From Clostridium brassicae (GTDB taxonomy: Bacteria > Bacillota > Clostridia > Clostridiales > Clostridiaceae): a DNA stretch of 64,000 nt. The stretch is from assembly GCF_026738875.1 (NCBI RefSeq), contig NZ_JAPQFJ010000011.1:62001-126000 (forward strand), in the 5' to 3' direction. The position numbers were made by a program, and so were the translations under genes. Positions 8,197-54,743 of the stretch are shown here, one piece after another; the first letter of the stretch is position 1; the number at the start of each line of letters is the position of its first letter. The notes under the pieces were generated by a model that searched no databases, was not told the DNA's origin, and worked only from the letters and a program-made list of their open reading frames with translations.

Positions 8197-11100
8197 GTGG
8201 ATTATAAAGAAAAATTTAAGAATGTAGTCTATTACTTGCTAAATGTAAGAAAAATGAAATTTGGAAAAAATAATAAAAGTACAGGAAGAGAAAATGAGGA
8301 GATTCAGTGTAAGAAGTGGGAGCAAGAGCTAAATAATATTATTAATGAAGTAGATGAGAATGGAGTTATACCTAATTCTATTAGAGCTTTAGTTGAAGAT
8401 AATACGGATTATGAAAATAAGGATTTTAATGAGTGGCAAGAAAGTATTGAGGAAATATTATTCCCTCTTCCTTATAGTCAAGCCCAAAAAGAAGTAGTTA
8501 AAAAAATAGGAAAAAGTTTTGGAGTTGTAATAGAGGGGGGGCCGGGTACAGGTAAAAGTCAAACAATAGTTAATTTAATTTGTCATTTCTTAGCTCATAA
8601 TAAAAGAGTTTTAGTTACTAGCCAAAGTGATAAGTCGCTGAAGATGTTATTTAAAAAGATTCCTGAAGATATAAAACCATTATGTATGAGTATAATTGAC
8701 AATAATTCAGAAGAGATGAAAGAAGTAGAATATTCTATAAGAAAAATAACTGAAAATATATCTTTAGATGGTAATAAGCTGTACAAGGAAACTAAATATT
8801 TACAGAATGAACTAAATAAATGTAGTGATAGGCAGAAGCAGTTGTATGATAACTTACAAAGGGCCGAAAAGATAGAAAATGGAACTGTAAAGTATGGTGG
8901 CAAGTATTATAAGCTATTAAATATAGCTAAGTGGCTTAAGGAAAATGAAAAACAATATTCTTGGATTGAAGATGAAATAAAGCCTAGACAAAAATGTCCT
9001 ATGACAGATGCTAAATTTTCAAAGCTAGTATACTTACTTAGCAATTCACAAAAAGAAGAAATAATTCAGTTTTCAAGAATGGAGAGCTTTTTATATAATA
9101 TACCATCAACTTTAGAAGTTGTTTCTAATATGGAGAAATTTATATATTTAAAATCTAATTACAATAAGTATATAACTATATTAAAAGATTGGTGCGTATC
9201 ATATAATGTGGATTATAATTATGGTAGAGTAATACATATTTTAGAAAGTACAGAAAAATTTTTGAATGATATTGAGGGGACTTGGTTAGAGAATATCCTT
9301 CAATCTTCTCATCAAAGTGAGACTGTAAGAGTAGTTTTAGATCATATGATTTTAAGGTGTAATTTTTATATTAAAAAAATTTGCAGCATTATAAAAGAAA
9401 TTAATTGCCACTATGTAGAAATACCAAACGCCATAGATGTTATGTATTTATCACAAAAATTACAAGTTATATGTAAACAATATGAGCAAAAAGGTAAAGT
9501 AAATAGATTATTTAGGGTATTACATCCTGAATGTGAAGATATTCTTCAAAAATGCAAAGTTGATGGAAAGTTGATTCAAAGTAAAGAACAAGCTCAAATA
9601 GCAATAAAATATGTTGAACAAAAATATGTTGAGGAATGTTTAAAGAAGCTCTGGAATAGCTCTGTAAATGTTTATAAAGGAGAAGAAATAGATGAGATTG
9701 ATTTGACTGTGCTATCTCAATTAGAAGATACAATAAATAAATTAGATACATTAATTAATTGGGATAATATAGTTAAAAACAAAGTTGCTATTGCTATGAG
9801 AAATATTGCTTTTTTAAATGATATGGATTGGTATAAGAAAGAAACATATATACATTTAAAACAAGGTATGCTAAGTATTAAGTGTCTTAATGAATATGAA
9901 AACATAAAAACATATCTTATAAATTTAAAATCAACTATATCCCAAATAGGTGGGTTTAAAGAAATCGTACAAGCTATAGATAGTTGTGATGTTAAACTTT
10001 TAAAAAGTGCTTATGAAAAGTTAGATAGATTAAAAGAAAAAGCACCTAAGCTTAAAGAGATAAACATTTTAATTGAACAAATAGGAGAATGTCCTAAACT
10101 TATAGATAAGATGCTAAGAGATGAAGATAAATTAAATATGTTAGTAAAATATAAGAATTTCAGTATAGCTTGGAAATGGAAGCAGTTTGATTATATGTTA
10201 GATAAGGCACATCAATTTGAAATTAATGATATAGAAGATAAGATAGAGGTTGAGAAAAATAATGAAAGTAAACTTATAGAAGAAATAGTAGTTAAAAAAG
10301 CTTGGAATAACGAATTACATAATATAGGTGAAATGGAAAAGAGGAGCTTATATGCTTGCTTAGATGCCTTTAAGAAAGTAGGAAAAGGAAAAGGAATTCA
10401 TTCTGATATGTACAAAAAATTAGCATCTAGGGAATTAGAAGTTTGTAAAAGTGTAATTCCTGTATGGATAATGCCTTTAGAAAATGTTATAGAAAATTTA
10501 CCTGTTTATGGAAATGAATTTGACGTGGTAATAATCGATGAAGGGAGTCAATGTGATATTTTCGCTATTTCAGCATTATTTAGGGCTAAAAAAGCTATTA
10601 TTATAGGGGACGATAATCAAATAACTCCTGAGGCTATAGGAACTAATACTTGTAAAACGCAAACACTTATAGATAAATATTTAAAGGATATCCCTCATTC
10701 TGAATGGTTTGACATGAAGACAAGTTTATATAGCACTGCACTTAGAATATTCCCAGATAGAATTATGTTAAAAGAACATTTTAGATGTGTACCAGAAGTA
10801 ATAGGATTTAGCAATGAGCTTTGCTATTCAAATGAAATAATTCCTTTAAGACAATCTAATAGTGTTGAAAGACTTGGTTTACCGGTAAAGGCTATAAGAG
10901 TACATGGAGAAAGAGATGTAACAAAGCCCATTAATTATAACGAAGCTGAAGCAATAGTAAGCAAGATATCAGAGTATTGTAGAAATCCAAAGTATAAAGG
11001 TATGACTATGGGAGTTATTTCTCTTTTAGGGGATGCACAATCAGAATTAATAGAAAGTATTTTAAAAAATAAAATAGGGAATAAGGAAATTAGTGAAAGA

Positions 11101-11697
11101 AAAATTATTTGTGGTAATGCTTATTCTTTTCAAGGGGATGAGAGAGATATAATATTCTTATCTATGGTGGTTTCAAACAATGTTAAATTTAGCACTTTGA
11201 CCAAAGAGTCTGATATAAGAAGATTTAATGTAGCAGCAAGTAGAGCAAAAAATAAGATGCTTTTATTTCACTCTGTAGATTTAAAAGATCTAAATCCAGA
11301 ATGTGTTCGTTCAAAGCTTTTGAGCTATTGTATAAATATAAATAATAATAAACACATGGATTTAAAAAATATATTAGAATCTCAATTTCAAAAGGATGTT
11401 TATAGAATGATTAAAGAAAATGGTTATGAAGTAAAGCCACAAGTTATAGTTGGAGAATATAAAATAGATTTTGTAATAGAAGGGGTTAATCATAAAATAG
11501 CCATTGATTGTAATGGAGATAAGGAGTCAAAGATAGAAAATTGGGAAGAAGAATATAATAAACAAGTATGTCTTCAAAGAATGGGATGGAGATTTTTAAA
11601 GATAAATGGAAGTGAGTTTTATAGAAATCCAGAGGAAACTATGGATAAGTTGTGTAGAAAAATAAGAAATATTGATGTTGATTCGGGAATAGCATAA
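8197..11697 (+). CDS. UPF1-like SF1 helicase with C-terminal endonuclease-like domain
   Basis: The 1166-aa protein has the superfamily 1 helicase motifs: Walker A EGGPGTGKSQTI (about residue 112), then a roughly 550-residue helical insertion, motif II VVIIDEGSQCDI (about 780), GDDNQITPEAIG, LKEHFRC, and late SFQGDERDII and NVAASRAKNK. The last 100 residues (SQFQKDV, YKIDFVIEG, KIAIDCNGD, RMGWRFLKING) resemble the Vsr/DUF559-like (MTES_1575) PD-(D/E)XK fold, but the usual ECDG reads DCNG. Such helicase-nucleases are known in anti-phage systems, so defence is plausible but not shown. The start is GTG behind AGGAGGT at 8184-8190. The DUF488 gene follows 88 bases later in the same direction. Confidence 0.85.
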   Translation: MDYKEKFKNVVYYLLNVRKMKFGKNNKSTGRENEEIQCKKWEQELNNIINEVDENGVIPNSIRALVEDNTDYENKDFNEWQESIEEILFPLPYSQAQKEVVKKIGKSFGVVIEGGPGTGKSQTIVNLICHFLAHNKRVLVTSQSDKSLKMLFKKIPEDIKPLCMSIIDNNSEEMKEVEYSIRKITENISLDGNKLYKETKYLQNELNKCSDRQKQLYDNLQRAEKIENGTVKYGGKYYKLLNIAKWLKENEKQYSWIEDEIKPRQKCPMTDAKFSKLVYLLSNSQKEEIIQFSRMESFLYNIPSTLEVVSNMEKFIYLKSNYNKYITILKDWCVSYNVDYNYGRVIHILESTEKFLNDIEGTWLENILQSSHQSETVRVVLDHMILRCNFYIKKICSIIKEINCHYVEIPNAIDVMYLSQKLQVICKQYEQKGKVNRLFRVLHPECEDILQKCKVDGKLIQSKEQAQIAIKYVEQKYVEECLKKLWNSSVNVYKGEEIDEIDLTVLSQLEDTINKLDTLINWDNIVKNKVAIAMRNIAFLNDMDWYKKETYIHLKQGMLSIKCLNEYENIKTYLINLKSTISQIGGFKEIVQAIDSCDVKLLKSAYEKLDRLKEKAPKLKEINILIEQIGECPKLIDKMLRDEDKLNMLVKYKNFSIAWKWKQFDYMLDKAHQFEINDIEDKIEVEKNNESKLIEEIVVKKAWNNELHNIGEMEKRSLYACLDAFKKVGKGKGIHSDMYKKLASRELEVCKSVIPVWIMPLENVIENLPVYGNEFDVVIIDEGSQCDIFAISALFRAKKAIIIGDDNQITPEAIGTNTCKTQTLIDKYLKDIPHSEWFDMKTSLYSTALRIFPDRIMLKEHFRCVPEVIGFSNELCYSNEIIPLRQSNSVERLGLPVKAIRVHGERDVTKPINYNEAEAIVSKISEYCRNPKYKGMTMGVISLLGDAQSELIESILKNKIGNKEISERKIICGNAYSFQGDERDIIFLSMVVSNNVKFSTLTKESDIRRFNVAASRAKNKMLLFHSVDLKDLNPECVRSKLLSYCININNNKHMDLKNILESQFQKDVYRMIKENGYEVKPQVIVGEYKIDFVIEGVNHKIAIDCNGDKESKIENWEEEYNKQVCLQRMGWRFLKINGSEFYRNPEETMDKLCRKIRNIDVDSGIA

Positions 11698-12470: not shown

Positions 12471-12561
12471 TATTGATGCTACTTATGAAATACTGAAAAA
12501 TATAGAATAATTTATTACAAAGCTCACAGTAATGTATACATTTAATGGATAATATTTTTAA

Positions 12562-12612
12562 TTGACATATAAATAAGTATATAATAAAATCTTAATATAC
12601 CCCCTAGGGGTA
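12562..12612 (+). promoter_or_regulatory. Promoter with CsoR/CstR-like palindrome
   Basis: TTGACA (12562-12567) and TAAAAT (12585-12590) form a promoter with 17-bp spacing. Just downstream, at the expected transcription start, is TACCCCCTAGGGGTA (12598-12612) with the exact palindrome CCCCTAGGGG. In such AT-rich DNA this G/C tract stands out. It resembles operators of CsoR/CstR-family repressors, which sense Cu(I) or sulfur species. No csoR gene is in the window. Confidence 0.6.
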
Positions 12613-12637
12613 CATTAAGATAAACGGAGGTACTTTA

Positions 12638-13279
12638 ATGAAAAATACACTAAAGAATTGGAAAAAATATGGATATGTGGTATTGATGATATTTATTGTG
12701 TTAGGTTTGTTTAATAGAAAAATAGCATTAGTAGCTGTTATATGTATGCTAGGCCCTCTAATGTTGGCATTATTTAATAGAGGTAGATTTTGGTGTGGTA
12801 ATATATGTCCTAGGGGTATATTCTATGATAATATAATTGTTAAGTATAGTCCTAAAAAGCCTGTGCCTAGATTCTTTAAATCAAAAATATTTAGAGGAGT
12901 ATTTATAATTTTTATGTTTTATATGTTTGGATCAGGTATTTATAAAAATTGGGGAGATAGTAATGGAATAGGTATGGTGTTTTACAGAATGATAGTTGTT
13001 ACTACAATTGTGGGAATAGGATTAGGGCTAGTATTTAACCATAGAACATGGTGTAATTTTTGCCCTATGGGAAGTATAGCAGCGATTATATCTTATTTTA
13101 AAAAGAATAGAAAGTCATTGATTGTAAAAGAATCTTGTGTTTCCTGTAAGTTATGTGAGAAAAAATGTCCTATGGGTATAGTCCCATATGATTATAAAGG
13201 AGATATAATAGATCATCCGGATTGTATTCAATGTGGACAATGTATAAATGTATGCCCTAAGAAATGTATTATAGAATAA
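12638..13279 (+). CDS. Membrane-bound 4Fe-4S ferredoxin (NapH/CcoG-like)
   Basis: The 213-aa protein has about four hydrophobic segments. Two cysteine pairs lie at membrane edges, FWCGNICPRG and TWCNFCPMGS, and two classical 4Fe-4S motifs are at the C-terminus: CVSCKLCEKKCP (about 165-176) and CIQCGQCINVCP (about 196-207). This is the NapH/4Fe-4S binding domain_5 arrangement, used to pass electrons across or along the membrane. The start is behind GGAGG (12626-12630). It is a single gene whose promoter carries a CsoR/CstR-like palindrome, which suggests control by copper or reactive sulfur; both the regulator and the electron partner are unknown. Confidence 0.82.
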   Translation: MKNTLKNWKKYGYVVLMIFIVLGLFNRKIALVAVICMLGPLMLALFNRGRFWCGNICPRGIFYDNIIVKYSPKKPVPRFFKSKIFRGVFIIFMFYMFGSGIYKNWGDSNGIGMVFYRMIVVTTIVGIGLGLVFNHRTWCNFCPMGSIAAIISYFKKNRKSLIVKESCVSCKLCEKKCPMGIVPYDYKGDIIDHPDCIQCGQCINVCPKKCIIE

Positions 13280-13294
13280 TGGTGTAATATAATC

Positions 13295-13410
13295 AATAAT
13301 GGCAGAGAAAGAGTTTTTACTAAATGTATGTAATTATTTATTAAATCTTAGGTATGAAAAGTTTAATTAGATAATTAATTACATGTATAAGAAAATTGAA
13401 TTTCTCTGCC
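13295..13410. repeat. Long imperfect inverted repeat between convergent genes
   Basis: GGCAGAGAAA (13301-13310) and TTTCTCTGCC (13401-13410) are exact complements at the ends of a 110-bp segment. Inner complementary patches (ATGTAATTA and TTAATTACAT) extend the pairing. It lies between the convergent ferredoxin and EamA genes and could end transcription from both. A 16-bp piece of its left arm recurs at 15495-15510. Confidence 0.6.
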
Positions 13411-16763: not shown

Positions 16764-17835
16764 TGTATATATAGCTGCTAAAATATTTTTTGACGATATA
16801 GGAGTAGAATATGTTGTTCCGCCAATAAATAATAAAACTGCTCTTGAAATTGGGACAGCTTGTTCTCCAGAAGAAATGTGTTTGCCATTTAAAATAATGA
16901 TGGGAAATTATTTACAGAGCATAGATAATGGAGCTGATACTATTTTGATAGTAGGTAGTTGTGGCCCGTGTAGATTTGGAGAATACTGCGAGCTTCAAAT
17001 GAATACTTTAAAAAAAATGGGTCATGATTTGCAGTTTATAGTGTTAGACTATCCTAAAGCTATTGGCAAAGAAGAGTTTATGCGTAGAGTAAACCTGTTG
17101 TTATCTGAAAGTAAGAAGAGCAATAGGGACAAAATAAAGGCGGGTTTAAAAGGACTTAGAGCCATAAATTTAATAGATAAAATCGAAGAAAGAGCTCATT
17201 ACTTAGCAGGGTATGAGGTAAACAAAGGTGAATGCAAAAAAATACTTAACAATTGTAAAAAAGAAGTATTTCAGACAAGTGATTCTACAAAAGCGTTAGA
17301 AATTTTAGAACAATATAGTAGGAAGATCAATAAAGTAAAGATAGATAGGAACAAAAATCCTATTAAAGTATCTATAATAGGTGAAATTTATACAGTAATA
17401 GATGAGTTCCCAAATCTAAATATTGAAGAAAAGCTTATGGACTATGGTGTATGTAGTAAAAGAAAATTAACACCTAGTTGGTGGCTGAAAGATGCACTAA
17501 TGAAAACGATAAAAGCTAACTCTATAGATTTAAGATTAGCTTCTAGGGAGTACTTGCCTTACTATGTAGGTGGGCATGCTAGAGAATGTATAGGGGAAGC
17601 TGTAATGGCGTATAAAGATAATTGTGATGGTGCTATTCAAATATTTCCTATGGGTTGTATGCCAGAGATTATAACAAAAGCAATACTTCCAACTATATCT
17701 AAAGATAAAGATTTTCCAATAATGAGTTTAGTAGTAGATGAAATGACAGGGGAAGGTGGATATGTAACAAGAATAGAAGCTTTCCTAGATCTATTAGAAA
17801 GGAGAAGAAAAAAAGATGTATCATATGGGTGTTGA
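16735..17835 (+). CDS. DUF2229-type acyl-CoA dehydratase activase-related protein (B)
   Basis: The 366-aa protein begins ITFPHMGNVYIAAKIFFDDI and carries CSPEEMCLPFKIMMGN near residue 43, then GSCGPCRFGEYCELQ near residue 74, and later PMGCMPEI. The cysteines suggest one or two [4Fe-4S] clusters, as in the double-cubane/HgdB-like proteins. Its end (DEMTGEGGYVTRIEAFLDLLERRRKK) parallels gene A. The start is TTG with GAGGAGG about 10 bases upstream inside the end of gene A. It overlaps the ATPase gene by 20 bp. The three genes are most likely one complex or electron-transfer chain; the reaction is not known. Confidence 0.8.
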   Translation: MKITFPHMGNVYIAAKIFFDDIGVEYVVPPINNKTALEIGTACSPEEMCLPFKIMMGNYLQSIDNGADTILIVGSCGPCRFGEYCELQMNTLKKMGHDLQFIVLDYPKAIGKEEFMRRVNLLLSESKKSNRDKIKAGLKGLRAINLIDKIEERAHYLAGYEVNKGECKKILNNCKKEVFQTSDSTKALEILEQYSRKINKVKIDRNKNPIKVSIIGEIYTVIDEFPNLNIEEKLMDYGVCSKRKLTPSWWLKDALMKTIKANSIDLRLASREYLPYYVGGHARECIGEAVMAYKDNCDGAIQIFPMGCMPEIITKAILPTISKDKDFPIMSLVVDEMTGEGGYVTRIEAFLDLLERRRKKDVSYGC

Positions 17836-18772
17836 TGTAGGATCAGTAAGCACAGATATAGTACTTACTGATAGTGCTATGAATGTAGTTGAAAGAATAT
17901 ATTTAAGAACTAAAGGAAAGCCTATAAATGCTGTTCAAGAAGGATTTAAAATGTTGAAAGGTAAGTATGATGATAAGCAAATTCAAAGCGTAGGTACTAC
18001 AGGAAGTGGTAGGCATATTGCAGCAGCTTTAATCGGTGCAGATGCTATAAAGAATGAGATTACAGCTCATGCCTATGCATCACTATTTATAGATAAGAAT
18101 GTTAGAACTATAATAGAAATAGGTGGTCAAGATTCTAAGATAATAACCTTAAAAGACGGGGTTGTAACAGATTTTGCTATGAACACAGTTTGTGCTGCTG
18201 GTACTGGATCTTTTTTAGATAGGCAAGCTGAGAGATTAGAAATACCAATTGAAAACTTTGGAGATTATGCGTTAAAGTCACAAGTTCCAGTGAGAATTGC
18301 TGGGAGATGCGCAGTTTTTGCTGAATCAGATATGATACATAAGCAGCAGTTAGGATATAATCAATCCGATATAATTATGGGGCTATGTGAGGCGCTTGTG
18401 AGAAATTATTTAAACAATGTAGCGAAGGGAAAAGATATAGAGCAAAAAGTATTTTTCCAAGGGGGAGTAGCAGCTAATAATGGGATAAAAAAAGCTTTTG
18501 AAAATGCTTTAGGATTTGAAGTATATGTACCCAAAAATTATGATGTAATGGGTTCTATAGGGGCAGCTATGCTAGGAGCTGAGGCAGTAAAAAAAGTTGG
18601 GAAAACTAAATTTAAAGGATTTGATATAGCAGATAGAAAATTTGTCTCTTCAAGTTTTGAATGTAATGGATGTCCTAATAGATGTGAAGTAGTTAATATA
18701 AAAGATGGATCATCTGTGGTTGGATGCTTTGGAGATAGATGTGGTAAATGGAGTGAAAGACAAGTAGTTTAA
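17816..18772 (+). CDS. BcrA/BadF/HgdC-type ATPase (CoA-dehydratase activase)
   Basis: The 318-aa protein has the ASKHA ATPase signatures MGVDVGSVSTDIVL, VGTTGSGR, EIGGQDSKII and FFQGGVAANNG. It also has the cluster cysteines CAAGTGSFLDRQAERL (about 123) and RIAGRCAVFAESDMIH (about 160), which in HgdC hold one [4Fe-4S] between two subunits. An extra C-terminal cysteine-rich tail, ECNGCPNRCEV then GCFGDRCGKW, is not part of HgdC itself but occurs in the larger activase-related proteins. It uses ATP to push electrons to a partner, here presumably proteins A and B. It is the third gene of the overlapping cluster. Confidence 0.88.
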   Translation: MYHMGVDVGSVSTDIVLTDSAMNVVERIYLRTKGKPINAVQEGFKMLKGKYDDKQIQSVGTTGSGRHIAAALIGADAIKNEITAHAYASLFIDKNVRTIIEIGGQDSKIITLKDGVVTDFAMNTVCAAGTGSFLDRQAERLEIPIENFGDYALKSQVPVRIAGRCAVFAESDMIHKQQLGYNQSDIIMGLCEALVRNYLNNVAKGKDIEQKVFFQGGVAANNGIKKAFENALGFEVYVPKNYDVMGSIGAAMLGAEAVKKVGKTKFKGFDIADRKFVSSSFECNGCPNRCEVVNIKDGSSVVGCFGDRCGKWSERQVV

Positions 18773-48190: not shown

Positions 48191-48290
48191 TTAAAAATCC
48201 AACTATTGAAAATTAAATAAAATACTATTCACCTATGAAACACGCTGTACATAATATAGAGTATAAACAATTAAGATGGAGTGTATCTGG

Positions 48291-48557
48291 GTGATATATG
48301 CACTAATATTAGCCGGTGGAAAAGGGACAAGATTATTCCCTTTATCGCGTGATAAAAATCCAAAGCAGTTTCTAAAGGTTATAAATGATAAGAGCTTTTT
48401 AAGAAATACTGTAGATAGAATAATGCCTTTAGTTAATAAAGAAAATATATGTGTAGTTACAAATAGAGATTATATAGATAAAATTTCAGAGGAGTTGCCA
48501 GAAATAAGCAGAGATAATATATTTATGGAACCTGCCAATAAAGAGACCCCGTTGTAG
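48291..48557 (+). pseudogene. manC: manC 5' part, interrupted by the recombinase element
   Basis: The N-terminal 86 codons of mannose-1-phosphate guanylyltransferase, which makes GDP-mannose from GTP and mannose-1-phosphate. It begins IYALILAGGKGTRLFPLSR, the nucleotidyltransferase loop, then DKNPKQFLKVI and ends FMEPANKET at 48548, followed by only two element-encoded codons and a stop. GTG 48291 is preferred: GGAG at 48278-48281 lies 9 bases upstream and it gives the standard MIYALILAGG start. The missing part resumes in frame at 53624. In this state no functional enzyme can be made; excision of the element would restore it. Confidence 0.9.
48538..48548 (+). repeat. Left attachment core (attL)
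   Basis: ATAAAGAGACC at the manC/element junction, identical to 53613-53623. The 11-bp core holds the manC codons for Lys-Glu-Thr, so crossover within it restores the reading frame. Confidence 0.9.
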
Positions 48558-48567
48558 ACGATATAGG
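48555..48567 (+). repeat. Left 13-bp inverted repeat of the element
   Basis: TAGACGATATAGG starts 6 bases inside the left core. The exact complement lies at 53601-53613 and overlaps the first base of the right core. Likely part of the recombinase recognition site. Confidence 0.8.
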
Positions 48568-48631
48568 TTTTTTGTAATAAAGTAGAGAGAGTTTATTGTT
48601 AAGATTTTTGTACAAAAATTATCCCATGTAT

Positions 48632-48705
48632 TTGACAAAGTAACAATTTATATGATAAATTAAGGTTGTTATTAGATACAACTTTATTGAATTATTAAGG
48701 TTGTT
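48632..48705 (+). promoter_or_regulatory. Promoter and BusR-type operator of the element's betaine operon
   Basis: TTGACA (48632-48637) and TAAATT (48656-48661) with 18-bp spacing are followed by AAGGTTGTT (48662-48670), ACAACTT (48678-48684) and a second AAGGTTGTT (48697-48705). GTTATTAGATACAACTT here matches GTTGCTAGATACAACTT at 19631-19647 in 15 of 17 positions, and the distal GGTTGTT lies at nearly the same distance. The chromosomal BusR-type regulator (18859-19491) is the obvious candidate to bind both. Confidence 0.7.
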
Positions 48706-48761
48706 GGAACGGCTCTTAATTTTAAGTGCTAAGGAAGAAAATGCAGTTTGTGGAGGTAAGT

Positions 48762-49937
48762 ATGGCAGAAATAGAAATAAATAATTTGTATAAAATTTTT
48801 GGACGAAATCCAAAAAAAATTATTCCCATTTTGGAAAAAGGAATGACTAAAGATGAAATATACAAAAAAACAGGTAACTCTGTGGGAGTCAACAATGTTA
48901 GTTTTAAAGTAAATGAGGGAGAATTTTTTGTAGTTATGGGTTTGTCCGGAAGTGGAAAATCCACATTAATAAGGTGTTTAAACAGGCTTATTAATCCCAC
49001 TAGTGGAGAAATATTAATTGATGGAGAAGATATATTAAAGAGTGATGAACAAAAGCTTCGTGAAATCAGACGAAAAAAAATAGCTATGGTATTTCAAAAT
49101 TTTGCATTGTTTCCCCATAGAACTATTTGCAGCAATGTAGAGTATGGATTAGAAATTCAGGGAATAGACAGTAAGGTAAGAAAGGAGAAAGCATATAAAG
49201 CTTTAGAATTAGTAGGACTTAAAGGATATGAGGAAAGCATGCCTAGTGAATTAAGTGGAGGAATGAAACAAAGGGTTGGACTAGCTAGGGCATTAGCTAC
49301 AGATCCTGAAGTATTACTGATGGATGAAGCTTTTAGTGCATTAGATCCTTTAATTCGTAAAGAGATGCAAGAAGAAATGCTTCAACTTCAATCAAAAATG
49401 AGAAAAACAATTATATTTATAACTCACGATTTAGATGAAGCTTTAAGACTTGGAGATAGAATAGCAATAATGAAAGATGGAGTAGTAGAACAGATAGGAA
49501 CTCCTGAGGACATATTAACTAATCCATCTGGTGAATACGTAAGAAAATTTGTACAAGATGTAGATAGAACAAAGGTTATTACAGCATCAACTATTATGGA
49601 AAATGCAAAAGCTATAATTCTTGAGAAAGATGGACCTAAAACAGCTGTAAGATTAATGAAAGAAGAAGGAATTTCTAGTATTTATGTAACAGATAAGGAT
49701 AGAAAATTAAAAGGAATTATAACAATTGATGATGCAATAAAACTTTCTAAAAAAGATGTTAGAAATATAAATGATATTATTATAAAAGAAGTTCCTAATA
49801 CATCAGAGGATGTACCGATTGGAGAATTATTATCCATAGCTGTGGATACAAAATATCCAATTGTAGTTACAGATAAAGAAAATACAATTCTTGGCATTAT
49901 AAAGAGATCTACAATAATTGCTGGGATTGCTGGATAG
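48762..49937 (+). CDS. opuAA: Glycine betaine ABC transporter, ATP-binding subunit (OpuAA/GbuA/ProV)
   Basis: The 391-aa ATPase has the OpuA/ProV-specific N-terminal part (NNLYKIFGRNPKKIIPILEKG) before the core, Walker A GLSGSGKSTLIR (about residue 61), MVFQNFALFPHRT, signature LSGGMKQRVGLARAL, Walker B VLLMDEAFSALDPLIR and THDLDEAL. Two CBS domains follow (KTAVRLMKEEGISSIYVTD; IGELLSIAVDTKYPIVVTD), the ionic-strength and c-di-AMP sensor region in OpuA. ATG 48762 is chosen with GGAGGT 4-9 bases upstream; an upstream in-frame start lies before that site. First gene of the cargo operon. Confidence 0.94.
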   Translation: MAEIEINNLYKIFGRNPKKIIPILEKGMTKDEIYKKTGNSVGVNNVSFKVNEGEFFVVMGLSGSGKSTLIRCLNRLINPTSGEILIDGEDILKSDEQKLREIRRKKIAMVFQNFALFPHRTICSNVEYGLEIQGIDSKVRKEKAYKALELVGLKGYEESMPSELSGGMKQRVGLARALATDPEVLLMDEAFSALDPLIRKEMQEEMLQLQSKMRKTIIFITHDLDEALRLGDRIAIMKDGVVEQIGTPEDILTNPSGEYVRKFVQDVDRTKVITASTIMENAKAIILEKDGPKTAVRLMKEEGISSIYVTDKDRKLKGIITIDDAIKLSKKDVRNINDIIIKEVPNTSEDVPIGELLSIAVDTKYPIVVTDKENTILGIIKRSTIIAGIAG

Positions 49938-49947
49938 GAGGATGAGT

Positions 49948-50772
49948 ATGACTACACTACATATAGGACCCTATATTGAATTTATAATCGATTGGCTAAA
50001 AGATAATATTTCTCCTTTCTTTGATTTTATAAAGTTAATTAATAAAACTCTTATAAACGGCTTAGAAACAGGACTTTTAGCGGTACCCAGCATAGTGATA
50101 ATAATAGCATTTGCTTTAATTGCGCTTAAACTTGCTGGTAAGAAAACGGCTATTTTTACTCTAATAGGATTATTATTTATTGATTCTATGGAATTATGGC
50201 CTCAAACTATGAAGACATTATCACTTATTTTAATTTCTGCACTTATTTCTTTAATTATAGGAATACCACTTGGAATTTGGGCAGCTAGAAGTGATAAAGT
50301 TAATAAGATTTTAAGACCAATACTTGATTTTATGCAAACAATGCCAGCCTTTGTATATTTAATTCCTGCTGTATTGTTTTTTGGAATGGGTAAAGTTCCT
50401 GGAGCTATAGCTACAGTAATTTTCTCAATGCCACCGGCAGTTAGACTTACTAACTTAGGTATTAGACAAGTTCCAGAAGATGTTATAGAAGCTGCCAAAT
50501 CATTTGGTTCTACAAAGAATCAAATGTTATATAAGGTACAGCTACCAATTGCGTTACCAACTATATTAGCAGGAGTTAACCAAACTATAATGCTTTCACT
50601 TTCAATGGTTGTTATCTCAGCTATGATAGGTGCAGGTGGTTTAGGTAGAGAAGTATACAATGGAATAACACAAATGCAGGTAGGTTCAGGATTTGAAAGT
50701 GGACTTGCTGTTGTAATATTGGCAATGGTTTTAGACCGAATTACACAACAATTAGGTAAGGCTAAGTATTAA
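49948..50772 (+). CDS. opuAB: Glycine betaine ABC transporter, permease (OpuAB/GbuB/ProW)
   Basis: The 274-aa permease has an N-terminal helix region (IEFIIDWLKDNISPFFDFI) and about six transmembrane segments with the docking loop EAAKSFGSTKNQMLYKVQLP near residue 185. MPAFVYLIPAVLFFGMGKVPG and AMIGAGGLGREVY are characteristic of ProW/OpuAB. ATG 49948 is preferred with AGGAGG at 49937-49942; an ATG two codons earlier is too close. It overlaps or abuts the ATPase gene end and lies 15 bases before the lipoprotein gene, so the three are one operon. Confidence 0.93.
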   Translation: MTTLHIGPYIEFIIDWLKDNISPFFDFIKLINKTLINGLETGLLAVPSIVIIIAFALIALKLAGKKTAIFTLIGLLFIDSMELWPQTMKTLSLILISALISLIIGIPLGIWAARSDKVNKILRPILDFMQTMPAFVYLIPAVLFFGMGKVPGAIATVIFSMPPAVRLTNLGIRQVPEDVIEAAKSFGSTKNQMLYKVQLPIALPTILAGVNQTIMLSLSMVVISAMIGAGGLGREVYNGITQMQVGSGFESGLAVVILAMVLDRITQQLGKAKY

Positions 50773-50787
50773 TAAGGAGGGAAAATA

Positions 50788-51687
50788 ATGAATAAAAAGT
50801 TAAGGCAAGTTATGTCACTAGTATTTGCTGGTGTGTTGGCAGTAGGAATATTAGCTGGATGTGGAAATAAAGCAGCGCAGACGAATTCAGATAAAAAGGA
50901 AAGCAAAGGGAAAGTAAATTTAGGGTATGTTAACTGGGCAGAAGGAATAGCCATGACTAACTTAGTGGAAGCAGTATTAGAAGAAAAAATGGGATATGAT
51001 GTTGAAAAGAAACAAGGAGAAGCTGGAATGGTATTTACTTCACTAGCTAATGGTGATATGGATGTATTCCTAGATGGATGGCTTCCTGTAACGCATAAAG
51101 ACTATATGGAAAAATATAAAGATAAACTAGAGAATTTAGGACCAAATTTTGAAAATGCAAAAATAGGATTAGTAGTTCCTAAATATATGAATATAAAGAG
51201 TATAGAGGATTTAAATGGAATTAAAGATGAGTTATCTGGAAAGATAATAGGAATAGATCCAGGTGCTGGAATAATGAAGGCCGCAAATAAGGCTGTAAAA
51301 GAGTATGGATTAAAATTAGAAATTCTTGAGGGTAGTGGAGCTACAATGACTACAATGCTTAAGAAAGCAGAGGATGCTAAAAAACCTATTGTTGTAACAG
51401 GATGGAAACCACATTGGAAATTTGCTCGTTGGGATCTTAAGTTTTTAGAAGATCCGAAAGGTGTTTTTGGAGAAGCTGAACATATTGATACAATTGCTAG
51501 AAAAGGTTTTGAAAAAGAAATGCCTGAAGTTGCTCAGTTTTTAAAGAACTTTAAAATGGATGATAAGCAATTAGGAAGTCTTATGGGAGATATAAAAGAT
51601 AACAGCGATAAAGACGCTTTAGATGTTGCAAAAGAGTGGATGAAAAAGAATGAGAAACTAGTAAATAGTTGGATTCCTAAAAAATAA
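50788..51687 (+). CDS. opuAC: Glycine betaine-binding lipoprotein (OpuAC/GbuC)
   Basis: The 299-aa protein has a lipoprotein signal: basic start, hydrophobic stretch and lipobox ILAGCG, giving Cys25 as the lipidated residue. The binding domain shows NLGYVNWAEGIAMTNLVEAV, MDVFLDGWLPVTHKDYM, and VVTGWKPHWKFARWDLKFL; the tryptophans in these motifs form the aromatic cage for the trimethylammonium group in OpuAC. It captures betaine, or a close relative such as proline betaine, outside the membrane. AAGGAGGG precedes the start. It ends in a terminator inside the element. Confidence 0.94.
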   Translation: MNKKLRQVMSLVFAGVLAVGILAGCGNKAAQTNSDKKESKGKVNLGYVNWAEGIAMTNLVEAVLEEKMGYDVEKKQGEAGMVFTSLANGDMDVFLDGWLPVTHKDYMEKYKDKLENLGPNFENAKIGLVVPKYMNIKSIEDLNGIKDELSGKIIGIDPGAGIMKAANKAVKEYGLKLEILEGSGATMTTMLKKAEDAKKPIVVTGWKPHWKFARWDLKFLEDPKGVFGEAEHIDTIARKGFEKEMPEVAQFLKNFKMDDKQLGSLMGDIKDNSDKDALDVAKEWMKKNEKLVNSWIPKK

Positions 51688-51714
51688 TATATACTGTAAT
51701 ACTACATTATAATT

Positions 51715-51764
51715 AAGCCTCCAGCATATTAATATTGTATAACAATATTCTGGAGGCTTTTTTG
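51715..51764 (+). terminator. Terminator of the betaine operon, carrying the next gene's ribosome-binding site
   Basis: AAGCCTCCAG pairs with CTGGAGGCTT, with further AATATTG/CAATATT pairing, then TTTTTT. The right arm's GGAGG (51752-51756) is the Shine-Dalgarno site of the 59-aa ORF, so a folded terminator hides it. Confidence 0.88.
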
Positions 51765-51943
51765 TGTCTAAAGAAAATATTAAAGTGAAATTTTATTATG
51801 GAGATGAATCCTTTGATAAACTTATAAAGAAAATTATTTTAAAAAAGCTTTCTGCCTATTTTTTTGAAGAAAATATGAATAAAATCTGTTACGGAAAAGA
51901 TAATTCTACAACGATCATTTACCAAGAAAAAAATAAGAGGTGA
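51764..51943 (+). CDS. 59-aa ORF upstream of the recombinase, candidate recombination accessory factor
   Basis: GTG 51764 follows GGAGG by 7 bases and the ORF ends at 51943, just before the recombinase start (coupled translation). The product (begins MSKENIKVKFYYGDESFDKL) is small, basic and lysine-rich, with a helix IKKIILKKLSAYFF. Size and position match small proteins next to serine recombinases in clostridial elements (TnpW-like) and the recombination directionality factor SprB of SPbeta. The role as excision factor is inference. Read-through of the terminator is needed unless a weak internal promoter exists. Confidence 0.6.
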   Translation: MSKENIKVKFYYGDESFDKLIKKIILKKLSAYFFEENMNKICYGKDNSTTIIYQEKNKR

Positions 51944-51948
51944 ATGGT

Positions 51949-53502
51949 TTGAGAGAAATATGGAATGTAGCTATATATGCTAGAGTTTCTACAGATAAAA
52001 AAGATCAGCAAGAATCAATCCCTGTTCAGGTACAAAGTTTGAAAAAATGGATATTGGAAAAGAGTAAAAATGATAAAGGTTCGATTTATAATCTTATTGA
52101 AATTTATAAAGATCAAGGATTTTCAGGTTCAAATTTTCAAAGAGATAGTTTTATAAGAATGAAAGAGGATATTGAAAAAGGTAAAATCAATATGATTTTA
52201 ACTAGAGATTTATCTAGATTTGCAAGAAATTATGTGGTTGCAGGATATTATATTGAAGACTATTTTAAAGTTAATAATGTAAGATTTATATCTGTACTGG
52301 ATAATGTAGATACTCTAGAAGAAGTAAATGATATTGTACCTTTTAAAAATATTCTAAACGAAATGTATATAAAAGATTGTTCAAGAAGAACAAGAGATGG
52401 GCTTAAGCAGAGAATGATAAGAGGTTCAAGTATTGCAAGTAAGCCACCTTATGGTTATAAAATTGTAGATGATTTTGAAGGAAATATTAAAACTAAAAAA
52501 TTAGTTCCTTCTAATGATGAAACAACAGAAGTTGTAAAACTAATATATGATTTGTATCTACAAGGCTGGGGGTTTGGGAGGATTGCAACATATCTTAATA
52601 AGAAAAACATACTCCCACCATCAGCAAAATTAAATAATTTTCCTAAAGCTAAGTTTGGAAGATGGACTAATAATACTATTCAATCCATACTTATGAATCC
52701 TAAATATGGGGGAATAATGGTTCAGGGGCAATATAAGAGAGTAAGTTATAAATTAAAAAAAATAGTTAAAGTATCTAAAGAAGAATGGATATATGGTGGA
52801 GAATTTAAAGGAATAATAAGTAAAGATAAGTTTTATGAAGTACAGAAAGAAATAAAAAGACGTTCTAAGGGATATAGATACAAGGGAAATGCAAAACATA
52901 TATTTTCCACTGTTCTTAAATGTAATGAATGTGATGGTTCTATGTCCTACAATAAAAGATATAAGGGATATAAATGTAGTAATAGTCAGAGGGGAGGGGG
53001 AAGGTGTACTTCTCATTCAATTAAAGAAGACTATCTTAAAGAAATACTTATTGAAGATTTAAAAAAAATTGTTCAGCATGAAGTAAATAAAGATGAATTA
53101 TATGAAGAGGCAAAAAACATAGTATCTAAAAAGAATAATTGTAAAAAGGAATTTAAGCAAATTGAGACAGAACTTAGAAAACTAGATATTCAATTTGAAA
53201 ATATATATGCAGATAGAGTAAATGGAGTTATTAATGATAGAAACTTTGAAAATATAACGAAAAGAATTCAGCGAAAACAGAATTCGCTTCTAAGACGTAA
53301 AGAAGAATTATTAAAACTAGAACAAAGACAGGATAATAAGGATAACTTATACAAAATATATAAGAGCAAGATTGATAAAATATTAAGTCTTCAAGAGATT
53401 GATAGATACATGGTTGAAAGTTTAATAGATAAGATAATTGTGCATGAAGATAAAATAACTAAGGAAAAAAGTATAGAAATATGCTATAAATTTCATAGAT
53501 AA
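51949..53502 (+). CDS. Large serine recombinase
   Basis: The 517-aa protein starts with the resolvase domain: VAIYARVSTDKKDQQESIP (nucleophile Ser14 in VST), YKDQGFSGSNFQRDSF and LTRDLSRFARN. The recombinase domain follows (SSIASKPPYGYKIV; LYLQGWGFGRIATYLNKKNI; TIQSILMNPKYGG), then a zinc ribbon with CNECDGSM and YKCSNSQRGGGRC, and a coiled-coil region near residues 390-460. This is the TndX/SpoIVCA/SprA class that integrates and excises elements between short cores. TTG 51949 is preferred 8 bases after AGAGG; a GTG three codons earlier sits in that site. It lies last in the element, next to the right core. Confidence 0.95.
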   Translation: MREIWNVAIYARVSTDKKDQQESIPVQVQSLKKWILEKSKNDKGSIYNLIEIYKDQGFSGSNFQRDSFIRMKEDIEKGKINMILTRDLSRFARNYVVAGYYIEDYFKVNNVRFISVLDNVDTLEEVNDIVPFKNILNEMYIKDCSRRTRDGLKQRMIRGSSIASKPPYGYKIVDDFEGNIKTKKLVPSNDETTEVVKLIYDLYLQGWGFGRIATYLNKKNILPPSAKLNNFPKAKFGRWTNNTIQSILMNPKYGGIMVQGQYKRVSYKLKKIVKVSKEEWIYGGEFKGIISKDKFYEVQKEIKRRSKGYRYKGNAKHIFSTVLKCNECDGSMSYNKRYKGYKCSNSQRGGGRCTSHSIKEDYLKEILIEDLKKIVQHEVNKDELYEEAKNIVSKKNNCKKEFKQIETELRKLDIQFENIYADRVNGVINDRNFENITKRIQRKQNSLLRRKEELLKLEQRQDNKDNLYKIYKSKIDKILSLQEIDRYMVESLIDKIIVHEDKITKEKSIEICYKFHR

Positions 53503-53600
53503 TTGTAAAATAAGTTTAATAAGTAACTTAGCTTTAATATTTAAAAGAGATGATATAGAGTTGGTTATTTTAAATTGTGAAAATGCAGCATTAAAAGTTA

Positions 53601-53613
53601 CCTATATCGTCTA
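53601..53613 (+). repeat. Right 13-bp inverted repeat of the element
   Basis: CCTATATCGTCTA, exact complement of 48555-48567, directly at the right core. Confidence 0.8.
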
Positions 53614-53623
53614 TAAAGAGACC
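53613..53623 (+). repeat. Right attachment core (attR)
   Basis: ATAAAGAGACC, identical to 48538-48548, at the element/manC junction. Confidence 0.9.
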
Positions 53624-54433
53624 GCTACTTGTATAGGTCTTTCAGCAGTTAAACTTTTAAAAAAAGATAAAGATGCTGTTATGCTGGTACTCCCCTCAGA
53701 TCATTATATACAAAATAACAAAAAATTTATAGATACTATATCTCAGGCAATTCAAATAGCTGAAAGAAGAAGAGGTCTTGTAACTATTGGTGTAAATCCT
53801 ACAAGACCAGAAACAGGTTATGGGTACATTCAAATAGGGGATAGAGTAGGGGGGGATATTCCAACATATAAAGTTGAGAGGTTTACAGAAAAACCTAATT
53901 TAGAAGTTGCAAAAGACTTTTTAGTCGATGGAAATTACCTTTGGAACAGTGGAATGTTTGTATGGAGAGCAGATGTATTCTTAAGAGAGATGGAGAAATA
54001 TCTTCCTAAAATGTATAAAAACCTAATGGAAATATATAAAGATGTAGGGAGTGAAAATGAGGAAGAAACAATAAAGGAACAATATAACTTGATAGAAGGT
54101 ATATCTGTTGATTTTGGAATAATGCAAAAGACAAGAAAAGCATATACTATAAAATGTGAATTTATATGGGATGATATAGGAAGCTTTTCATCTATGACTA
54201 GATTTTTAAATGAATTTAGAGGAAATAATATTTTAGGAAAAACTTTTCTAGAGGAAAGCGAAGATTGCTTTGTTTTTAGTAAAGATAAGTTAATAATAGG
54301 GTTTGGAATAAAGGATTTAATAATAGTTGATGCAGGAGATGTGCTTCTAGTAATGGACAAAAATAAGGACCAAGAATTAAAACATTTAGTAAATCAGATA
54401 AAAGAAGAGAAAGAATACGAAGAATATTTGTAA
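53624..54433 (+). pseudogene. manC: manC 3' part, separated from its start by the element
   Basis: Codons 87-355 of mannose-1-phosphate guanylyltransferase. After the core it continues ATCIGLSAVKLL (the EPxxxxTA motif completed across the junction), VLPSDHYIQNNKKF, GYGYIQIGD, VERFTEKPNLEVAKDFL, NYLWNSGMFVWRADVF and WDDIGSFSSMTRFL, all standard ManC landmarks. The frame remains open to its normal stop with no decay, which suggests that the intact gene is still selected and is restored by excision. A frame that starts in the element (TTG 53561) runs into it but lacks the catalytic loop. Confidence 0.9.
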
Positions 54434-54497: not shown

Positions 54498-54743
54498 ATG
54501 GAATGTAGCATAATAAAAATTCAAGATTACATTGACGGTGGATATATTTATATACCAAGAAAAGAATGTAATAAAAAAGCATGGGGAGAAAAAACAGAGT
54601 GTAAAAAAGAAATATATGAAAGAAATTTAAGCATATATAGAGAGTATAAAAATGGATTATCTATTAAAGAACTTTCGGAAAAGTATTTTTTATCCCCTAA
54701 ATGGATTCAAAAGATTATCGCAAGTTTAAGATTAAAACAATAA
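54498..54743 (+). CDS. CD3324 family protein (small HTH)
   Basis: The 81-aa protein has the pattern of the CD3324 family of clostridia: DYIDGGYIYIPRKE at the N-terminus, then KKAWGEKTECKKEIYERN, then a Mor-like helix-turn-helix in YKNGLSIKELSEKYFLSPKWIQKII. The C-terminal part should bind DNA; targets are unknown. There is no strong Shine-Dalgarno site, since the terminator stem ends only 17 bases upstream, so it may start from a short leader. Confidence 0.75.
   Translation: MECSIIKIQDYIDGGYIYIPRKECNKKAWGEKTECKKEIYERNLSIYREYKNGLSIKELSEKYFLSPKWIQKIIASLRLKQ

Follow-up and report, generated by a model that had tools for sequence, protein, structure and literature searches.

The gene manC of Clostridium brassicae was analysed in a stretch of 64,000 nucleotides (bases 62001-126000 of contig 3 of a 4.1-Mb genome; hereafter the window). 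It was found to be interrupted after codon 86; the inserted unit, 5,075 bp long, has attachment (att) sites at its ends and a gene for a large serine recombinase. Both pieces of manC are open, a sporulation-type promoter motif precedes the gene, and the split recurs through the family Clostridiaceae. Judged from its sequence, manC is very probably a late mother-cell gene that is rebuilt during sporulation by excision of an integrative element. A working manC would then probably be confined to the spore-building cell, and its product is probably an enzyme for a precursor of spore sugar.

The split manC locus

The interrupted gene is laid out as follows.

48291..48548, + strand: manC 5' piece, 86 codons, GTG start (TIGR01479 1-86)
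48538..53612, no strand: intervening element, one core copy and all up to the other copy, 5,075 bp
53624..54433, + strand: manC 3' piece, 269 codons plus stop (TIGR01479 84-352, PF22640)

The 5' piece runs from the GTG at 48291 to 48548 (86 codons) and the 3' piece from 53624 to 54430 (269 codons). Copies of ATAAAGAGACC lie at 48538-48548 and 53613-53623, at a spacing of 5,075 bp. The split by a unit of this size had been proposed earlier from the same DNA, and the coordinates, lengths and repeat positions given then were all confirmed. In the split state the 5' frame enters the element for 7 codons and stops at 48555-48557.

The same original prediction held that the joined pieces form one ManC. 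This was borne out by the profile matches, in which the pieces are consecutive parts of one profile and in order (TIGR01479 1-86, then 84-352, of 467). Together they span the catalytic part of TIGR01479, the isomerase part of the profile being absent, and each piece alone scores below the whole-protein cut-off. No intact manC was found elsewhere in the source genome at E<=1e-25, where the sole two matches were the two pieces. The proposed comparison with relatives that lack the insertion showed manC continuous through the insertion point in G001, G002, G004, G007 and G012. A further genome of the same genus, G006, has the same element at the identical position.

Attachment sites

The following features were assigned at the two junctions.

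48538..48548, + strand: left core copy (attL), ATAAAGAGACC, predicted crossover dinucleotide AC at 48546-48547
48556..48568, + strand: attL inner arm, AGACGATATAGGT, symmetric with the attR arm about AC
53600..53612, + strand: attR inner arm, ACCTATATCGTCT, mirror of the attL arm
53613..53623, + strand: right core copy (attR), direct repeat of the left core

The core is flanked by a 13-bp inverted repeat, with a copy of AGACGATATAGGT beside each core in opposite orientations. When the ends of the window element were brought together, the arms were symmetric about AC and stood 8 bases off on either side. Across 26 elements, 303 of 416 arm positions matched when centred on AC, and 87-129 when the centre was shifted in either direction by 1 to 5 bases. 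The only letters that attL and attR have in common throughout the 26 elements are AC, bases 1 and 2 of Thr codon 87. Because AC alone is common to these 26 pairs, the 11-bp repeat is in part ordinary similarity, and it was replaced by AC as the crossover core. The 11-base core of the original prediction therefore stands as a repeat at both ends but not as the real core. With core copies at both ends, symmetric arms and consecutive TIGR01479 pieces, recombination between the att sites would restore the reading frame, as in elements of the skin kind.

Distribution in Clostridiaceae

The intact ManC of G001 was used as query against 206 Clostridiaceae genomes with a threshold of E<=1e-25, and a match was obtained in 194. 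Outside the family, manC was used as query for 15 genomes. The 59 genomes with weak or partial best matches were searched again and classes were assigned by hand, which gave 138 intact and 44 split genes. The split lies at codon ~86 only (site 1) in 32 genomes, at codon ~206 only (site 2) in 7, and at both sites in 5. Of the remaining genomes, 6 have a single piece, in 2 manC runs off a contig end, 2 carry a frameshift and 14 lack manC; in two of these 14 there is only a relative of 28% or 39% identity.

Of the 44 split genomes, 33 have their pieces on one contig, and for these the sequence was fetched. Every manC stretch was stop-free in all 33, the alignment in G135 beginning nine residues late. 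The distance between pieces ranged from ~2.8 kb (G015) to ~101 kb (G062). Five genomes (G113, G169, G170, G173 and G213) have manC in three pieces, with different recombinases at the two sites, and the viral contig L175 is arranged likewise. Both pieces were present in one fetched stretch of C. tepidiprofundi, C. rectalis and C. thailandense, and were also attributed to C. ganghwense, Oceanirhabdus sp. W0125-5 and Hathewaya massiliensis. Among the matches listed, ManC paralogs (36-45% identity) were unbroken at both sites, and two of them (G019, G097) are shorter single frames. As a separate observation, L125 (G055) has the manC 3' piece in tandem after a single 5' piece, at 12561-13367 and 17199-18014, ~4 kb apart.

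Three distantly related recombinase clades interrupt manC. Clade A, to which the window protein belongs, uses site 1, and its members, where found, are 52-97% identical to that protein. Clade B occupies the same site in G055, G072 and G213, with 46-63% mutual identity and 26-29% identity to clade A, and in G055 and G072 its arms mirror each other about the same AC (G213 lay outside that test). Clade C interrupts site 2, its members being about 45-68% identical, and sequence around AGAGCAGAT occurs at most of the nine junction pairs listed. The clade-C frames of G169 and G170 are only ~320 aa, and G044 has an extra recombinase of another type.

Among 22 titled genome contigs with a recombinase at least 48% identical to that of the window, 20 had the manC 3' piece downstream. 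In the other two, from Geosporobacter, the recombinase is in a different gene. These two species (L051, L052) carry the clade-A-like protein (48-50%) between the two portions of a Lon-like protease gene, at 10001-11533 and 10001-11527 respectively, with an AGCS-type symporter-like open reading frame (ORF) as cargo. The right junction there, GAGACTGCT / GCGACTGCT, resembles the manC site.

Probable link of manC to sporulation

One promoter feature was assigned upstream of manC.

48230..48258, + strand: sigma-K-type promoter motif, CACC, then CATAATATA (CAC-N17-CATAnnnTA)

Of 70 loci, 66 have the pattern CAC, 16-17 nt, CATAnnnT, placed 56-65 bases ahead of the manC start; shuffled sequences gave an expectation of 0.18 over the 70. 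Counted per genome, as four loci repeat a genome, it is present in 62 of 66, split or intact, the misses being G138, G165, G173 and G204. Only one of the 48 gene starts of the window, that of manC, has the motif. In C. difficile the -10 element of sigma-K promoters is reported as CATA and resembles that of sigma-E promoters, with a -35 element of AC for sigma-K and ATA for sigma-E, and the P2 promoter of sigK is given as having CATATAAT and AC (PMC3789822).

SpoIVA is present in 193 of the 206 genomes, with its ATPase domain in a single open frame among the matches listed. When only genomes with a completeness of 90% or more and a contamination of 5% or less were counted, manC was absent from all seven that lack SpoIVA (the 28% match of G206 being counted as non-manC) and from two of the 165 that have it, namely G092 and G100 (39% paralog only). 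The motif and the co-absence of manC with SpoIVA would fit a mother-cell target.

Selection on the split gene

Between the window and G006, the ratio of nonsynonymous to synonymous substitution rates (dN/dS) was 0.076 and 0.072 for the two manC pieces. Twelve neighbouring genes found in G006 had dS values of 0.008 to 0.52, and 3 of the 15 tested were missing from the fetched stretch. Because the element is younger than manC in this pair, the comparison says little on the time spent split. Absence of decay relative to G006 was accordingly dropped as proof and deeper pairs were used; the earlier claim of an undecayed 3' part holds in G006 but is weak evidence there.

Recombinase dS was equal to or above manC dS in G122/G113, G121/G122, G121/G113 and G169/G170, and the two were close in G060/G062 (0.79 and 0.94, respectively). 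In these five split pairs dN/dS of manC codons 88-206 was 0.037-0.092. Since the element is as old as the separation of the genomes in such pairs, manC has been under selection while split. The interrupted gene is therefore intact in sequence both by the stop-free pieces and by selection.

The elements also move horizontally. Recombinase and manC identities were correlated with an r of only 0.34 over 496 pairs, and the recombinase is the more similar of the two in G200/G123 (84% against 70% for manC) and in G204/G060 (79% against 56%).

Contents of the element and neighbouring genes

The element carries the following features.

51940..53502, + strand: large serine recombinase, 520 aa (PF00239, PF07508, PF13408, PF14287)
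51764..51943, + strand: 59-aa ORF, candidate recombination directionality factor (RDF), with 45-65 aa counterparts in clade A
51715..51759, + strand: hairpin with the ribosome-binding GGAGG of the 59-aa ORF in its 3' arm (-24.1 kcal/mol, z -5.7)
48762..49937, + strand: ProV/OpuAA-like ATP-binding cassette ATPase with CBS domain, cargo (TIGR01186, 467 bits, cut-off 326.6; PF00005, PF00571)
49948..50772, + strand: ProW/ChoW-like permease, cargo (PF00528; TIGR03416, 335.5 bits, below the cut-off of 363)
50788..51687, + strand: OpuAC-type substrate-binding protein, cargo (PF04069, E 7.5e-79)

The recombinase has Resolvase, Recombinase and zinc-ribbon domains (PF00239, PF07508, PF13408) above cut-off, and matched TnpX and TP901-1 integrase in the Protein Data Bank. 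Its gene (51940-53502) lies near a junction, as in skin-kind elements. Its relatives among phage records, 464 in number, were all below 60% identity, ~31% being the top among the six listed. Eleven viral contigs gave one close recombinase (66%), on L175, which is itself a split manC. The window element has no phage structural or replication genes, its contents being the transporter, the small ORF and the recombinase.

Small acidic partners act as RDFs in related systems, SprB in SPbeta and CD1234 in skinCd (PMC5025042). In each of the 30 clade-A elements examined, an ORF of 45-65 aa directly precedes the recombinase. Most of these small ORFs have a YG motif as well as a stretch of similar, helix-like character, which makes the 59-aa ORF a candidate for this role. 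In PHROGs, one of ten members matched one unnamed family (E 0.008). Several elements have a CATA-type sequence within the hairpin over the small ORF; one idea is that transcription from a promoter within it would expose the ribosome site of the 59-aa ORF. The hairpin looks as if it doubles as terminator of the cargo operon. A sporulation promoter 5' of the small ORF was also considered and set aside as suggestive only.

The cargo of the window element is a proVWX-like transporter of the betaine/choline type. Other elements that were sampled bring different cargo: G102 has an arginase-family protein, G135 a methylpurine-DNA glycosylase, G109 an AAA protein, G019 a CdiI-immunity-like protein, and G005 both a large kinase/sensor and a reverse transcriptase. 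In three very large elements, none of nine sampled proteins fell into a family named as phage-structural; several matched families of unknown function and two had no match. These three elements may contain nested or secondary insertions.

Outside the element, manC is preceded by a Na+/H+ antiporter gene (PF03553, 46698-48017) and followed by an 81-aa ORF (54498-54743) without a match in the fetched G006 stretch. Further downstream, on the opposite strand, lies an EmrB-type major facilitator superfamily efflux gene (TIGR00711, 57311-59002).

Proposed mechanism and alternatives

During growth, with the element in codon 87, manC would be split and no ManC made. Late in sporulation the gene would be read by sigma-K RNA polymerase in the mother cell. 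The serine recombinase, probably aided by the 59-aa ORF as directionality factor, would join attL and attR at AC, the element would leave as a circle and the reading frame of manC would be rebuilt. ManC could then supply GDP-mannose or a related sugar nucleotide to the spore surface. The mother cell would die, and the spore would retain the split chromosome together with the cargo.

The finding that three distantly related clades interrupt manC, two of them at the same AC, may point to a shared developmental docking site in sporulating Clostridiaceae. Since manC would be required late only, in a doomed mother cell, any cargo would ride there almost cost-free. Species with a double split would then have an AND gate at the level of DNA, with two independent excisions required before spore sugar is made. 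The chances for and against this extended view are judged to be even.

Several observations weigh against rebuilding by excision. G066 (100% complete) has the 5' piece only (G066:C29:42018-42269), the 3' piece not being found there, and five further genomes have one piece and two a frameshift. Between the window and G006, the element genes (48762-53502) had dS of 0-0.064, several-fold below the 0.19-0.31 of the flanking manC, which points to a recent transfer; this lineage probably gained its element, or exchanged it, not long ago. The 59-aa ORF is an RDF by candidacy only: it had no Pfam or NCBIfam match, comparison of the small ORF with solved structures gave nothing credible (best E 0.065), and a sporulation-type -10 before the small ORF, at 9 of 30 against 3.9 expected, was not well supported. 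The strict promoter pattern occurred 5 times genome-wide against 3 in a reversed control, for which reason no regulon is claimed. The Fisher p of 4.6e-11 for co-absence of SpoIVA and manC overstates independence because the SpoIVA-less genomes cluster in few genera.

The strongest competitor holds that manC is merely a favoured integration site, conserved yet dispensable, where random gain and loss restore intact alleles and no excision is programmed. The movement of elements between hosts (r 0.34; G200/G123), the youth of the element relative to manC between the window and G006, the 138 intact genomes and the lone 5' piece of G066 would all fit. Such a site would not account for stop-free manC in 33 of 33 genomes, purifying selection where the element is as old as the genome split, a sporulation promoter motif and tracking with SpoIVA, or three recombinase clades on one sporulation-linked gene, and this explanation is considered improbable. 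A plain parasite without regulated excision was likewise rejected as the main reading, because of the open pieces (33/33) and the promoter motif (62/66). The skin- or SPbeta-like reading of the original prediction is in this respect favoured over the parasitic insertion that it had named as alternative (44/206 split, 33/33 stop-free, motif 62/66, SpoIVA 7/7).

In another reading, excision would be reversible and active during growth, a plain phase switch for surface sugar with no tie to sporulation. This would suit a serine recombinase with its own cargo, and excised forms of yin are reported at all time points (PMC10747680). The sigma-K-type motif upstream of manC (62 of 66 genomes) and the co-absence with SpoIVA make such a switch very unlikely. 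Least likely of all is a split enzyme whose pieces act as separate polypeptides with no DNA excision, since despite an in-frame TTG at 53561 upstream of the 3' piece, that piece would require its own expression signals in every species, five genomes have manC in three pieces, two of which lie as much as 37 kb apart in G113, and the element-derived tails of the 5' pieces differ in length.

Comparison with known systems

Reported targets of such elements include sigK, spsM, spoVFB, spoVR, gerE and yabG (PMC4191935, PMC10747680, PMC5595907), and C. tetani site-A prophages are located in sigK (PMC5553647). No report of an interrupted manC was found among the titles and abstract openings listed by full-text searches of open-licence papers; print beyond them may differ. 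Sporulation genes rebuilt by excision were previously a handful, whereas manC is split in ~1/5 of the sampled species of one family, at two sites and by three clades. These cases form a comparative data set on whether such insertions are tolerated or selected and on the evolution of directionality factors, and bear on how mobile DNA targets genes that are harmless to break until development ends. They also offer many natural integrase/att pairs and point to an unstudied sporulation-linked sugar gene.

In B. subtilis, SPbeta interrupts spsM, a sugar gene of the spore surface under sigma-K, uses a serine recombinase with a small RDF and rebuilds its target precisely in the mother cell (PMC4191935). 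For manC the corresponding sugar role and excision are suggested by sequence, and the RDF is a candidate. SPbeta is reported as an active prophage, unlike the 5-kb manC element with its transporter cargo, which has another target gene and family. The skin and skinCd elements in sigK have a mother-cell target (a probable one in the case of manC) and a small RDF (a candidate in manC), and share with the manC element a large serine recombinase and att half-sites in which inverted repeats surround a short direct repeat (PMC5025042). Their target is a sigma factor rather than an enzyme gene, and in the manC element, unlike in these, the recombinase and RDF candidate adjoin the 3' junction (PMC5025042). 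The gin element in gerE of B. cereus is likewise free of phage genes and splits a mother-cell gene, as manC probably is, with three recombinase genes compared to one and one small ORF in the manC element (PMC5595907). The yin element in yabG of C. botulinum V73 is clostridial as well, with a sigma-K-regulated target (as predicted for manC), the same recombinase Pfam domains and inverted repeats flanked by a short direct repeat; it is described from one isolate, whereas manC is split in 44 of 206 genomes by three clades (PMC10747680).

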